Source of the DNA: Acidobacteriota bacterium | Lineage (GTDB): Bacteria > Acidobacteriota > Terriglobia > Acidiferrales > UBA7541 | Reading direction: 5' to 3' | Assembly: GCA_003223325.1 (NCBI GenBank) | Contig: QHYS01000062.1 | Coordinates: 11,618 to 59,255 of the forward strand | DNA: 47,638 nt | Part shown: piece after piece, positions 20,315 through 23,855 of the stretch | Layout of the letters: every line of letters begins with the position of its first letter | How positions within the stretch are numbered: the stretch's first letter is position 1 | The notes under the pieces: generated by a model | Databases searched by the model: none | The model's input: the letters and a program-made list of their open reading frames with translations, nothing else | Told to the model about the DNA's origin: nothing | Position numbers and translations under genes: made by a program

Positions 20315-20746
20315 ATGCGGATTCAACTTTTATTGCTGGGGAAAACGCGGCGTCCAGAAATTCGTGAGTTGATGGATGACTACGTGGCGCGCATCCGGCG
20401 CTACGCCGAGATTGAGATCCACGAATTGCGGCCGGACTCAGCGGCGAGCCGGAAGCGCCTGGACATCGGAGCAGGCGGAGCGGTCGTGCTGCTCGATGCA
20501 GCAGGGGAAAAGCTCAGCTCACAACAATTCGCGGAATGGATCCGATCATGCCGCGATCGGAGTGCGCGTGAGCTGATCTTTTTGTGCGGCGCCGCGGAGG
20601 GATTCCCAGAGGCGCTGGCTGGACGCGCGTCGTTGCGGATTTCCCTTTCGCCACTGACGTTTTCGCACGAGCTGGCGCGCATAATGCTGACGGAGCAGAT
20701 TTACCGGGCATTCACAATTCTCGCTGGGCACCCTTACCCAAAATAG
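20315..20746 (+). CDS. rlmH: 23S rRNA (pseudouridine1915-N3)-methyltransferase
   Basis: A SPOUT methyltransferase acting on helix 69 of 70S ribosomes. 143 aa from ATG 20315. Family blocks: MRIQLLLLGKTRRPEIRELM, YVARIRRYAEIEIHEL, AVVLLDAAGEKLSSQQFA, LIFLCGAAEGFPE and LSPLTFSHELARIMLTEQIY. The usual C-terminus is HPYH(K/R); here it is HPYPK, so a His near the SAM/substrate site is Pro. The SAM loop LCGAAEGF differs slightly from the common GGPEG form. Otherwise intact. Confidence 0.9.
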   Translation: MRIQLLLLGKTRRPEIRELMDDYVARIRRYAEIEIHELRPDSAASRKRLDIGAGGAVVLLDAAGEKLSSQQFAEWIRSCRDRSARELIFLCGAAEGFPEALAGRASLRISLSPLTFSHELARIMLTEQIYRAFTILAGHPYPK

Positions 20747-20805: not shown

Positions 20806-20834
20806 TTGACACCGGGAGCGCCGGTGGGTAGCCT
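20806..20834 (+). promoter_or_regulatory. Promoter of the sulfite reductase leader
   Basis: Perfect TTGACA (20806–20811), 17-base spacer, TAGCCT (20829–20834; three of six matches). The expected start point, seven bases after the -10, is the A of ATG 20841, so the transcript could begin with the leader peptide's own start codon. The weak -10 would fit a promoter that needs help from an activator. Confidence 0.55.
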
Positions 20835-20840
20835 GTAGGC

Positions 20841-20906
20841 ATGGGAGAGTGGCAGATCATGTGCGCGTGTTGTTGTCGGATAACAGCGCCGCGGTGTGCC
20901 GGCTAG
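20841..20906 (+). CDS. Cysteine-rich leader peptide (candidate attenuator ORF)
   Basis: A 21-codon ORF ending at TAG 20904–20906. A second in-frame ATG (20859) gives MCACCCRITAPRCAG. Five cysteine codons occur, with three in a row (20868–20876). It lies between a TTGACA promoter and an intrinsic terminator, 94 bases before the sulfite reductase ATG. No strong Shine-Dalgarno precedes ATG 20841, which suits leaderless translation; ATG 20859 has GGGAG at longer distance. Polycysteine leaderless ORFs acting as cysteine-responsive attenuators are known from mycobacteria. Here the role is inferred from the layout. Confidence 0.65.
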   Translation: MGEWQIMCACCCRITAPRCAG

Positions 20907-20932
20907 CCCGCTCTAATTAGCTCTCATTCGAG

Positions 20933-20970
20933 CCCACCGTCGGACGCAAAATTCGGCGGTGGGTTTTTTG
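20933..20970 (+). terminator. Intrinsic terminator/attenuator before the sulfite reductase
   Basis: CCCACCGTCG (20933–20942) pairs with CGGCGGTGGG (20954–20963): ten pairs with one G-U. TTTTTTG follows at once. The reductase ATG is only about 30 bases on, so termination here would silence it. GCGGTG (20891–20896), inside the leader ORF after the Cys codons, can pair with CACCGT (20935–20940) and would break the terminator. That gives the two exclusive folds an attenuator needs. Confidence 0.8.
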
Positions 20971-20999
20971 TTAGGAATTGCAGGAAGACGAACGAGGAT

Positions 21000-23252
21000 A
21001 TGAAGGCTTCCAATTCACTGTGGCAGAAAGAGCTTGCCGGGAAAATGCCGGATGCTCTGGCCCGCGAGATCGACATTTTCGAGACCGAAATCACCCTGCG
21101 CAAGCAGGGCAAGCTAGAGGAGCGCCTGTTCGCCGAAACGCGGCTTCGCAAAGGAGTATACGGCCAGCGGTACGATAACGGTCAGAGACACGACGGCAGA
21201 AAAGTTCAGGAAATGGCTTACCCCTCCGAGTTGACGAAAGGCCTCAACACCATGTGGGATGCGCCGGGAATGCAGCGCATCAAAATTCCCGCGGGCGGAT
21301 TAAACGCCCATCAACTCGAGACTCTCGCCGAACTGGCTGAGGAATATTCCGACGGCATCGCACACGTCACTACCCGGCAGGATTTTCAGCTCCACTATGT
21401 GCACATCGACGACACGCCCAGCTTGATGCGTCGCCTCGCCGCGGCAAATATCACCACGCGCGAAGCTTGCGGAAACTCAGTGCGTAACGTCACGGCTTGC
21501 CCTTACGCGGGCGTTTGCCCGGACGAAGTATTCGATGTTACGCCGTTCGCTCGCGCGCTCTCGAAATTTTTGCTGGGCCATCCCGATTGTCAGAACTTCG
21601 GCAGAAAATTCAAACCGTCATTCAGCGGCTGCGGTCAACACGCCTGCGGCCTGGCGAGCATGCACGACCTTGGCTTGATCGCGGTACAAGGAACGGAGAA
21701 TAGAGAGAGGAAGATTGGCTTCGAAATGTACGTTGGCGGCGGCCTCGGCGCCGTCCCGTATCAGGCGAAACTCTTCGACCCGTTTGTTCCGCCCGAGGAA
21801 CTGCTGCCACTGGCGCAGGCAATTGGGCGCGTTTTCGCTAAGTACGGCGAAAAGAAAAATCGCAGCCGGGCGCGGATCAAGTTTCTGATTCAGGATCTGG
21901 GAATCGAGAAATTCCGGAAGCTCGTTTTGGAGGAGCGCAAGAACCTGCCCCCGGATCCCCGCTGGACCGAATATGTCGAGAGCGCAGCAGCATTCACGGA
22001 AGCACCTCTCAAACCGGCCGGCAATAAGCCGCTTTTGGGCTCAACGGATTTTCAGCGCTGGCTCGAGACGAACACCCGTCCGCAAAAACAAGAGGGCTAC
22101 TCCGTGATTACCATCGCCCTGCCGCTCGGCGATATTACTGCCAACCAGCTTCGGGCGCTCGCAGACGTCGCCCGGCGGTTCACAAATGAAACGATTCGCA
22201 CGACCGTGGAACAAAATATCGTGCAGCGCTGGATCAGCCAGAATGATCTCGCTGAGCTCTGGCGGGCCCTTCAGGCCGCGGGTCTTGCTTATCCCGGTGC
22301 GGAAACGATCCTGGATATCGTCACATGCCCGGGCACGGATACCTGCAAACTGGGCATCTCCTCTTCCCGGGGACTGGCGGCCGAGCTGCGCAAGAGATTA
22401 GCGGAAAAGAATTTTCAGTTCGATGAAGCCGTCCAGAATCTGCACATCAAGATCAGTGGCTGTTTCAACAGTTGCGGCCAGCATCACGTCGCCGACCTGG
22501 GATTTTACGGCGTAAGCCGCAAAATGGCGGGATACGCGGTGCCACACTTCCAAGTGGTTCTGGGCGGGGAGTGGACGCATAACGCAGCGTCATATGGCAT
22601 GCCGGTCATGGCGGTCCCCTCGAAGCACATTCCGGAGGTGGTCACGCGGCTTGTGGACCGGTACGCGGCCGGACGGAAGAACGGAGAAGCATTCAAGGAC
22701 TTCATCAAGCGGATTGGCAAAGCGGAACTGAAGAGTCTGCTGGAGGATCTGGCGCGCTCTCCCGCCGATCCAACCGATCGTTCCATCTTCACGGATTGGG
22801 GCGATCCCCGGGAGTACAGCTTGGAGGATCTCGGCGTAGGCGAATGCGCCGGAGAAGTGGTGTCGGCCGTCGATTTCGATCTCGCGGGCGCAGAAAGGGA
22901 AGTCTTTGAGGCCCAGGTGGCATGGGACAACGGCCAAGCAGACACGGCGGGAAGACTCGCCTATCAGGCGATGCTGCTCGCGGCGCGAGGCTTGGTCAAA
23001 CTCGAGTATCCGAATATCTCGCAGGATAGCGATCAGATCGTCGGCGAATTCCGGACGCGATTTTACGATACGCAGAAATTTTTCGATCCTTTCGCCGGAG
23101 GCAAATTCGCCCACTATTTGTTTGCCGCACAGCAAAGGAGCCAGCGGCCTCACACAGCCGACTCAGCGCGTTATCTGATCGACGAAGCGCACCTGTTTGT
23201 GGAGGCCGCCCACAGTTGCTATCAGCGAATGGGCAAACCGGTCGGCGTTTAG
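21000..23252 (+). CDS. Nitrite/sulfite reductase hemoprotein with C-terminal extension
   Basis: 750 aa, two-repeat siroheme/4Fe-4S reductase making sulfide from sulfite or ammonia from nitrite, probably with ferredoxin. The cluster cysteines are C443 and C449 (CPGTDTC) and C488 and C492 (SGCFNSCGQH). The N-terminal half has a mirrored set, C167 and C173 (CPYAGVC) and C211 and C216 (CGQHAC), where the family usually lacks cysteines. After about residue 625 a helical domain follows (AQVAWDNGQADTAGRLAYQA … ARYLIDEAHLFVEAAHSCY) that looks HEPN-like. Substrate choice is not certain from sequence; the cysteine-rich leader favours sulfite and cysteine synthesis. Confidence 0.88.
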   Translation: MKASNSLWQKELAGKMPDALAREIDIFETEITLRKQGKLEERLFAETRLRKGVYGQRYDNGQRHDGRKVQEMAYPSELTKGLNTMWDAPGMQRIKIPAGGLNAHQLETLAELAEEYSDGIAHVTTRQDFQLHYVHIDDTPSLMRRLAAANITTREACGNSVRNVTACPYAGVCPDEVFDVTPFARALSKFLLGHPDCQNFGRKFKPSFSGCGQHACGLASMHDLGLIAVQGTENRERKIGFEMYVGGGLGAVPYQAKLFDPFVPPEELLPLAQAIGRVFAKYGEKKNRSRARIKFLIQDLGIEKFRKLVLEERKNLPPDPRWTEYVESAAAFTEAPLKPAGNKPLLGSTDFQRWLETNTRPQKQEGYSVITIALPLGDITANQLRALADVARRFTNETIRTTVEQNIVQRWISQNDLAELWRALQAAGLAYPGAETILDIVTCPGTDTCKLGISSSRGLAAELRKRLAEKNFQFDEAVQNLHIKISGCFNSCGQHHVADLGFYGVSRKMAGYAVPHFQVVLGGEWTHNAASYGMPVMAVPSKHIPEVVTRLVDRYAAGRKNGEAFKDFIKRIGKAELKSLLEDLARSPADPTDRSIFTDWGDPREYSLEDLGVGECAGEVVSAVDFDLAGAEREVFEAQVAWDNGQADTAGRLAYQAMLLAARGLVKLEYPNISQDSDQIVGEFRTRFYDTQKFFDPFAGGKFAHYLFAAQQRSQRPHTADSARYLIDEAHLFVEAAHSCYQRMGKPVGV

Positions 23253-23267
23253 AGGCTAGTACGCGGT

Positions 23268-23855
23268 ATGGCAGTCATGCAGCTTCAGCACGTCAACGTC
23301 AAACTGTTGGTAAAAAACCCAGAGGAAGTGGACCTCGGGCCTTTGATTCCGGTGTTTCACAGTTGGATTCAAGGGCAAATTATGGAAGAACTGCTACTGG
23401 ACGTTGCCGATTACCGGCACGTTCCAGCGGGCCCGGGCGTGGTTCTGGTCGGACACCAGGCCAACTATAGCGTGGACAATACCGACGAGCACCTGGGGGT
23501 GCGTTATAACCGCAAGACCGTAGTGAACGGTAGTAATCAGGATGCCCTGCGCCAAGCGATGCGGGCGAGCCTGATTGCGTGTCAGCGGCTGGAATCCGAG
23601 CCGAGCCTCGAGGGAAAGCTGCGGTTCAACGGTCAAGAGGTCGAGTTCTTCATTAATGACCGCCTGCTCGCTCCCAATCGCGACGCCGCTCGCGAAACGT
23701 TCCATTCGGATTTCGAGACGTTCTTCGAGAAGCTGTTTCGCGGCAGCGAATATTCGCTGTCGTATACGAGCGAGCTGCGCAAACTGTTTGGTTTCTCCTT
23801 GAAGACCTCACGGGTCTTTGCTACAGCGGATCTTTTGGCGAACCTAAACGCCTGA
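23268..23855 (+). CDS. Conserved hypothetical protein downstream of sulfite reductase
   Basis: 195 aa with no signal peptide and no membrane segment. It opens MQLQHVNVKLLVKNPEEVDL, with LIPVFHSWIQGQIMEELLLD and ADYRHVPAGPGVVLVGHQAN next; these look like an alpha/beta domain. The C-terminal part is helical and charged (ETFHSDFETFFEKLFRGSEY). It starts 15 bases after the reductase stop, so it is very likely in the same transcript and under the same attenuator. I do not recognise the family. A role in reductase assembly, siroheme delivery or sulfide handling would be a guess from position only. Confidence 0.75.
   Translation: MAVMQLQHVNVKLLVKNPEEVDLGPLIPVFHSWIQGQIMEELLLDVADYRHVPAGPGVVLVGHQANYSVDNTDEHLGVRYNRKTVVNGSNQDALRQAMRASLIACQRLESEPSLEGKLRFNGQEVEFFINDRLLAPNRDAARETFHSDFETFFEKLFRGSEYSLSYTSELRKLFGFSLKTSRVFATADLLANLNA

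Follow-up and report, generated by a model that had tools for sequence, protein, structure and literature searches.

The window, which is the whole stretch of DNA analysed here (47,638 nt), belongs to a 6.1-Mb draft genome whose nearest relatives are metagenome-assembled genomes of Acidobacteriota. The locus of interest, on contig C4 of that genome, lies on the forward strand between rlmH, which ends at position 20746, and a gene for a 750-amino acid reductase of the NirA/SIR family. A –35 element (TTGACA, 20806 to 20811) is located 60 nt past the end of rlmH and is followed, after a 17-nt spacer, by a –10 element (TAGCCT, 20829 to 20834). The latter matches the consensus weakly, at only three of six positions, and a plain consensus scan of the window did not report this promoter. 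We consider the promoter call to be supported because the arrangement TTGACA-17-TAGCCT-ATG is identical in L010, a 93%-identical relative, and because the layouts of most other leaders are alike. An ATG at 20841, six nt after the –10 element and thus at the expected start of transcription, opens an ORF of 21 codons (20841 to 20906) that encodes MGEWQIMCACCCRITAPRCAG and ends with a TAG at 20904 to 20906. Five of its codons specify Cys, three of them consecutively. The sensor Cys codons occupy 20862 to 20876 (TGC at 20862 and TGT at 20868, 20871, and 20874), and the fifth (TGT 20895) lies beyond the main run. The ORF is probably leaderless, its start appearing to coincide with the 5' end of the mRNA or to lie only a few bases from it; this inference rests on sequence, without 5'-end data, and strict leaderless initiation is the least certain step of the mechanism proposed below.

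Downstream of the Cys run we identified RNA segments with alternative partners. Region 2, the 5' strand of a candidate antiterminator (GCGCCGCGGTGTGCCGG, 20886 to 20902), begins approximately 9 nt past the run and ends just ahead of the stop codon. Region 3 (20928 to 20947) may pair either with region 2, forming the antiterminator (2:3), or with region 4, forming an intrinsic terminator hairpin (3:4, 20930 to 20966) with the U tract TTTTTT (20964 to 20969). A candidate Shine-Dalgarno sequence of the reductase gene, GAGG (20994 to 20997), lies outside all leader helices and precedes the reductase ATG at 21000. The preliminary description of this locus had named both promoter elements, the ATG at 20841, the five Cys codons, the stop codon, the hairpin, the U tract, and the reductase start, and all of these were confirmed base for base.

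The reductase gene (21000 to 23252) encodes NIR_SIR domains according to Pfam, whereas no NCBIfam model scored above its own cut-off, the NirA family being the best match. The closest solved structure is that of NirA of Mycobacterium tuberculosis, an enzyme that is a sulfite reductase despite its name. The window reductase contains the lysine pattern KFK at a position occupied by KYK in the M. tuberculosis enzyme and by KWN in plant nitrite reductase. KFK is the pattern expected of a sulfite reductase, and this inference from sequence, together with the cysteine leader, favours sulfite reductase and disfavours nitrite reductase as the identity of the enzyme. Just 3' of the reductase stop codon is an ORF for 195 amino acids (23268 to 23855) for which neither Pfam nor NCBIfam gave a match; from its position, it is likely to belong to the reductase operon and to be co-regulated.

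Folding of the terminator (20930 to 20966) yielded –23.9 kcal/mol (z = –5.9), and none of 200 shuffled sequences was equally stable. The hairpin has up to 15 pairs rather than the ten counted in the preliminary description. Similarly, the six pairs between GCGGTG (20891 to 20896) and CACCGT in the left arm of the terminator, which had been taken as the antiterminator, held as the core of a longer helix. Complementarity between region 2 and the left arm was –23.9 against –15.2 in shuffles (p = 0.007). The 2:3 and 3:4 structures were predicted to be equally stable, at –24.4 kcal/mol each. With a ribosome on any of Cys codons 1 to 4, folding predicted that 2:3 forms ahead of the synthesis of region 4. 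When the ribosome was placed at the stop codon, only the 3:4 terminator was left, and in the free leader the ORF folded on itself and the terminator formed. Both the GAGG and the start codon of the reductase gene were predicted to be open in every fold, with or without the leader. Region 2 of the window deviates from the consensus of its relatives in that several of 10 consensus pairs are broken, and its pairing with region 3 depends on a helix that is shifted and bulged. A 1:2 hairpin, between region 1 and region 2, was not significant in the window (p = 0.44) and was significant in 26 of 88 leaders.

For comparison, reductases of relatives were collected by scans of genome contigs, of the order, and of 399 genomes of the class, with 60 upstream stretches in addition. 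At least four Cys codons within seven were found in 39 of 127 upstream regions read in the sense direction, compared with one in the antisense direction and a mean of 0.65 in shuffles. The Cys run, the antiterminator segment, and the terminator were retained ahead of the reductase gene in several lineages of Acidobacteriota. Such leaders preceded reductases of 70 to 93% identity as well as a second family that is only approximately 40% identical (L025 to L038), and they were also present ahead of the reductases of L064, L072 (assigned to Proteobacteria), and L078 (Rhodothermia). Each leader contained three to seven clustered Cys codons, and apart from the run the peptides had little in common, varying in both sequence and length. 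A strong U-tailed hairpin was found in nearly all Cys-positive leaders, 28 to 103 nt (mostly 50 to 90 nt) past the run. The spacing between hairpin and gene ranged from 16 to 143 nt among relatives, and the U tract was nearly always kept. The element was absent from several relatives of the reductase, including L013 of the same genus. Four loci without a polycysteine leader (L046, L047, L048, and L085) instead shared a conserved stretch, GCAGTTC..CGGTGGATTTGTTATTCT, just ahead of the reductase gene, which might be a different regulatory site.

The Cys codons of the leaders differed in usage from those of the genes they precede, with 207 TGT and 85 TGC (71% TGT of 292) in leaders and 41 TGT and 420 TGC (9% TGT of 461) in the reductase genes. 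Use of a rare codon might sharpen the response, or TGT might prevent the run from forming structure; the data favour neither possibility over the other. In a genus with the second sulfite reductase family (g2, L026 to L038), the end of the leader peptide, SGQRSFRT, was nearly invariant and coincided with RNA region 2, and selection may act here on the peptide or on the RNA.

The geometry of promoter and start codon was also shared. A good –35/–10 pair followed by an in-frame ATG or GTG 3 to 14 nt past the –10 element was present in 51 of 88 leaders, compared with 0.05 in shuffled upstream sequences. Distances of 6 to 8 nt and of 12 nt were the most common. Inferred from this geometry, messages of the 6- to 8-nt group, to which the window belongs, would be leaderless, and those of the 12-nt group would have a leader of approximately 5 bases.

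In 36 of 53 reductase leaders, region 2 was more complementary to the left arm of the terminator than were dinucleotide shuffles, and the same was true of 28 of 35 leaders found with covariance models (described below), mostly those of other genes. Region 2 mostly began 6 to 12 nt after the Cys run and usually ended at or before the stop codon. Given this position, a ribosome stalled on the Cys codons would leave region 2 free, and one at the stop codon would cover it. The most common form of region 2 in reductase-type leaders was CCGGCG-U-GUGG, with CCAC-CGUCGG as its partner, and the cysD and rhodanese types had a CUCUGGCG-like region 2 with CGCCAGAG as partner. Covariation of the 2:3 helix in close reductase leaders alone was merely suggestive (three pairs, reached in 12 of 500 shuffles), and we therefore added leaders of other genes. 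In the resulting set of 34 leaders, 83% of cells were paired and 28 cells were doubly changed, compared with 11.7 expected, a value that none of 500 shuffles reached; sliding the partner reduced pairing from 83% to 36 to 57%. The 3:4 terminator helix showed five doubly changed pairs (0 of 500 shuffles). It should be borne in mind that p-values pooled over leaders ignore the relatedness of the sequences.

Two covariance models were constructed, one from the reductase leaders and a second widened with the matches of the first. Given that both models contain the Cys run, the presence of a run in their matches is not independent evidence, whereas the presence of sulfur genes downstream is. In the source genome, the element also precedes cysD (leader ...CRQMCCCLCCKS...), the gene for the siroheme synthase CysG (...CACCSVSS...), a rhodanese gene, and a gene for a PF03601 (YeiH-type) membrane protein. 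Targets in relatives included a sulfate-binding protein, TauE/SafE, and a sulfonate-type substrate-binding protein, and further CysD, CysG, CysH, rhodaneses, additional sulfite reductases, a pyridine-nucleotide oxidoreductase resembling sulfide:quinone reductase, a 1-Cys peroxiredoxin, and outer-membrane receptors. Genes immediately after the element were thus mostly sulfur-related. The preliminary description had been confined to one gene; its extension to a regulon, with the same device ahead of other sulfur genes of the source genome, is supported by these matches. The leaders appear to constitute a phylum-wide cysteine "ribulon" in Acidobacteriota that acts by transcription termination, with both termination and the response to cysteine being inferred. 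The term ribulon was reportedly coined by the mycobacterial authors for a regulon run by ribosomes.

Several individual matches deserve separate mention. A weaker Cys cluster, GCSCRCRQPFSGAWRRMK, was found in the source genome (G000:C338:5898-6024, L244) ahead of a gene for a 320-amino acid protein without a Pfam match. Polycysteine leaders preceded the 1-Cys peroxiredoxin gene in one family (f11; L234, L259 to L261, L263, L265, L268, and L269), and to our knowledge no link between Cys-tRNA and peroxide defence is known elsewhere. In genus g12 (L210, L212, and L214), such leaders preceded genes for large beta-barrel receptors of the outer membrane whose plug is carboxypeptidase-like; these receptors might take up sulfur compounds. 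Short ORFs rich in Thr, Ser, and Ile rather than Cys, accompanied by the same type of terminator, preceded the aspartokinase gene in L218, L220, L221, L225, and L227 and are likely to represent a threonine attenuator in Acidobacteriota. In L262 (1501 to 1615), a leader ORF with a Trp/Tyr run, MTTTNYNSRTINAAWYWWSV..., and a terminator preceded the DAHP synthase gene, likely as an attenuator responsive to aromatic amino acids. On the minus strand of L276, the gene for a PLP enzyme of Cys/Met metabolism was preceded by a terminator and a leader rich in Met and Cys, MKMKCNGTGTLVYMCCMAMPM..., and this leader may sense methionine.

The window very likely contains a transcription attenuator of the trp/his kind that is ribosome-mediated and responds to cysteine, and translation of its leader would start at the 5' end of the mRNA or within a few bases of it. 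The ORF, its Cys codons, their conservation, the covarying alternative pairing, the terminator, the promoter-start geometry, and the nature of the downstream genes are shown by sequence. Leaderless initiation, stalling, termination, and the response to cysteine are inferred, there being no transcript, ribosome, or cysteine data. In the proposed mechanism, transcription would start at or next to the ATG at 20841, and a ribosome would load directly on this codon. When Cys-tRNA is scarce, the ribosome would stall on the Cys codons at 20862 to 20876, leaving region 2 (20886 to 20902) free to capture region 3 (20928 to 20947) before region 4 is made, and transcription would read through into the reductase gene. 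When cysteine is ample, the ribosome would reach the stop codon at 20904 and cover region 2, so that 3:4 forms and transcription terminates at approximately 20969. In the absence of translation, the leader would fold on itself and the terminator would form. With several operons for the uptake, reduction, and handling of sulfur each carrying its own copy, the shared supply of Cys-tRNA would regulate the whole regulon. The preliminary description had proposed this sequence of stalling and antitermination, stating that it would be refuted if relatives lacked the short ORF or its Cys codons and calling for covarying terminator and antiterminator pairs. The idea survived this examination in that Cys runs, antiterminator, and terminator were conserved and covariation was found. 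Its claim of a leaderless ORF fits the promoter-start geometry, which is compatible with a leaderless or near-leaderless message, although initiation itself remains inferred.

Among alternative explanations, one that leaves attenuation unchanged remains possible: the ORF might be translated with a leader of approximately 4 to 8 nt or from the upstream rlmH transcript. In many relatives the start codon lies 11 to 14 nt past the –10 element, which would leave a leader of approximately 4 to 7 nt, and rlmH ends (20746) only 60 nt before the promoter. Against a short leader, the distance is 6 to 7 nt in the window, L010, L024, and several others, placing the expected start on the ATG, and a transcript starting there has no room for a Shine-Dalgarno sequence.

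Translational attenuation as reported for mycobacteria, in which stalling would expose the ribosome-binding site of the reductase gene without termination, is unlikely. In its favour, the leaderless polycysteine ORFs of M. smegmatis have been described as acting on downstream translation (Canestrari et al. 2020, by its title; PMC9031893; PMC13236596). Occlusion of the reductase ribosome-binding site is nevertheless disfavoured by folding, with GAGG and ATG predicted to be unpaired whether or not the leader is present. In addition, the distance from hairpin to gene varies widely while the U tract is nearly always kept, and Seliverstov et al. (2005, PMC1262725) noted the absence of terminator hairpins from the leaders of mycobacteria.

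Still less likely is that the short ORF is made for the sake of a Cys-rich peptide, for example one that binds metals or thiols, with the hairpin merely ending the upstream transcript. Conservation of the ORF and the nearly invariant SGQRSFRT terminus in g2 would be consistent with such a role. Because little besides the Cys run is conserved, however, a functional peptide is improbable; the g2 tail coincides with region 2, regions 2 and 3 covary, and the element lies just ahead of a gene that is mostly a sulfur gene. A chance Cys-rich frame beside an ordinary terminator, for which it can be said that the TGTTGYTGY run is common in the source genome (214 places), is all but excluded by the comparison with relatives, namely by conservation, covariation, promoter geometry, and the sulfur-gene regulon.

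A bolder reading of the cysteine attenuator is that sulfur assimilation in Acidobacteriota operates without a dedicated sensor protein. Leaderless, TGT-rich ORFs with covarying antiterminators and terminators would occur throughout the phylum and allow Cys-tRNA to regulate a dozen kinds of operon at the level of transcription. The system would be the counterpart of the translational system of mycobacteria, from which it would probably have arisen independently, and its layout would have been reused for Thr (aspartokinase) and for Trp/Tyr (DAHP synthase). Taken jointly, we lean slightly toward these propositions.

According to Naville and Gautheret (PMC2965389), hardly any of the attenuators predicted in Acidobacteria had an assigned function, and in the literature searched, which left most subscription journals out of scope, we found no assigned attenuator of this kind for Acidobacteria. 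Rfam gave no match at the gathering score for the window and none at E values up to 1 for the leader. Against this near-absence of assigned functions (PMC2965389), the present element is a predicted acidobacterial attenuator for which the signal, the mechanism, and the regulon are clear. With it, cysteine-regulated genes of a soil phylum that is abundant and poorly tractable can be located and annotated, unknown ones such as those for outer-membrane receptors, YeiH-type transporters, and peroxiredoxins among them, and the prediction is directly testable.

The trp, his, and thr attenuators of proteobacteria follow a 1:2, 2:3, 3:4 scheme, and their leader peptides normally start from a Shine-Dalgarno sequence on a longer leader. 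The window shares with the trp/his type clustered codons for the product of the regulated pathway, an intrinsic terminator before the gene, and an excluding antiterminator that overlaps the end of the leader ORF. It differs in that the start codon probably lies at the 5' end or close to it, the amino acid is cysteine, and the target is sulfur assimilation. For the uORFC-8-2 motif, which precedes cysS in Rhodobacterales, Brewer et al. (2021, PMC8632094) proposed ribosome-mediated attenuation in response to Cys-tRNA; the motif likewise combines a short ORF that contains Cys codons with RNA stems and a terminator ending in a U run. That motif has two Cys codons and a single target, cysS, in one order of Alphaproteobacteria, whereas each acidobacterial leader has a cluster of three to seven Cys codons, the target operons are many, and the start is near-leaderless.

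There is also a likeness to mycobacteria. Seliverstov et al. (2005, PMC1262725) predicted leader peptides for cysteine, unaccompanied by terminators, in Mycobacterium, Propionibacterium, and Bifidobacterium, and leaderless attenuators were shown in M. smegmatis (Canestrari et al. 2020, Mol Microbiol, via PMC9031893 and PMC13236596). In mycobacteria, leaderless ORFs with a Cys run precede several sulfur operons of one genome, as do the probably leaderless ORFs of the source genome, and ribosome stalling is likewise inferred to report on Cys-tRNA. The mycobacterial leaders belong to a different phylum, lack a terminator hairpin (PMC1262725), and are described as acting on translation, whereas the window has an intrinsic terminator with a covarying antiterminator and a ribosome-binding site that is predicted to be open, for which a transcriptional output is predicted. 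The likeness to mycobacteria drawn in the preliminary description therefore held for the probably leaderless polycysteine ORF and failed at the output step, given that folding of the leader is not predicted to close the ribosome-binding site of the reductase gene; output by exposure of this site without a terminator is not what the window exhibits. Leaderless polycysteine sensing is thus suggested not to be peculiar to mycobacteria and to be coupled here to a different output, termination. Ribosome-mediated sensing of cysteine is already known elsewhere, and what appears to be new, as inferred from sequence, is the joining of leaderless-type polycysteine sensing to intrinsic termination.
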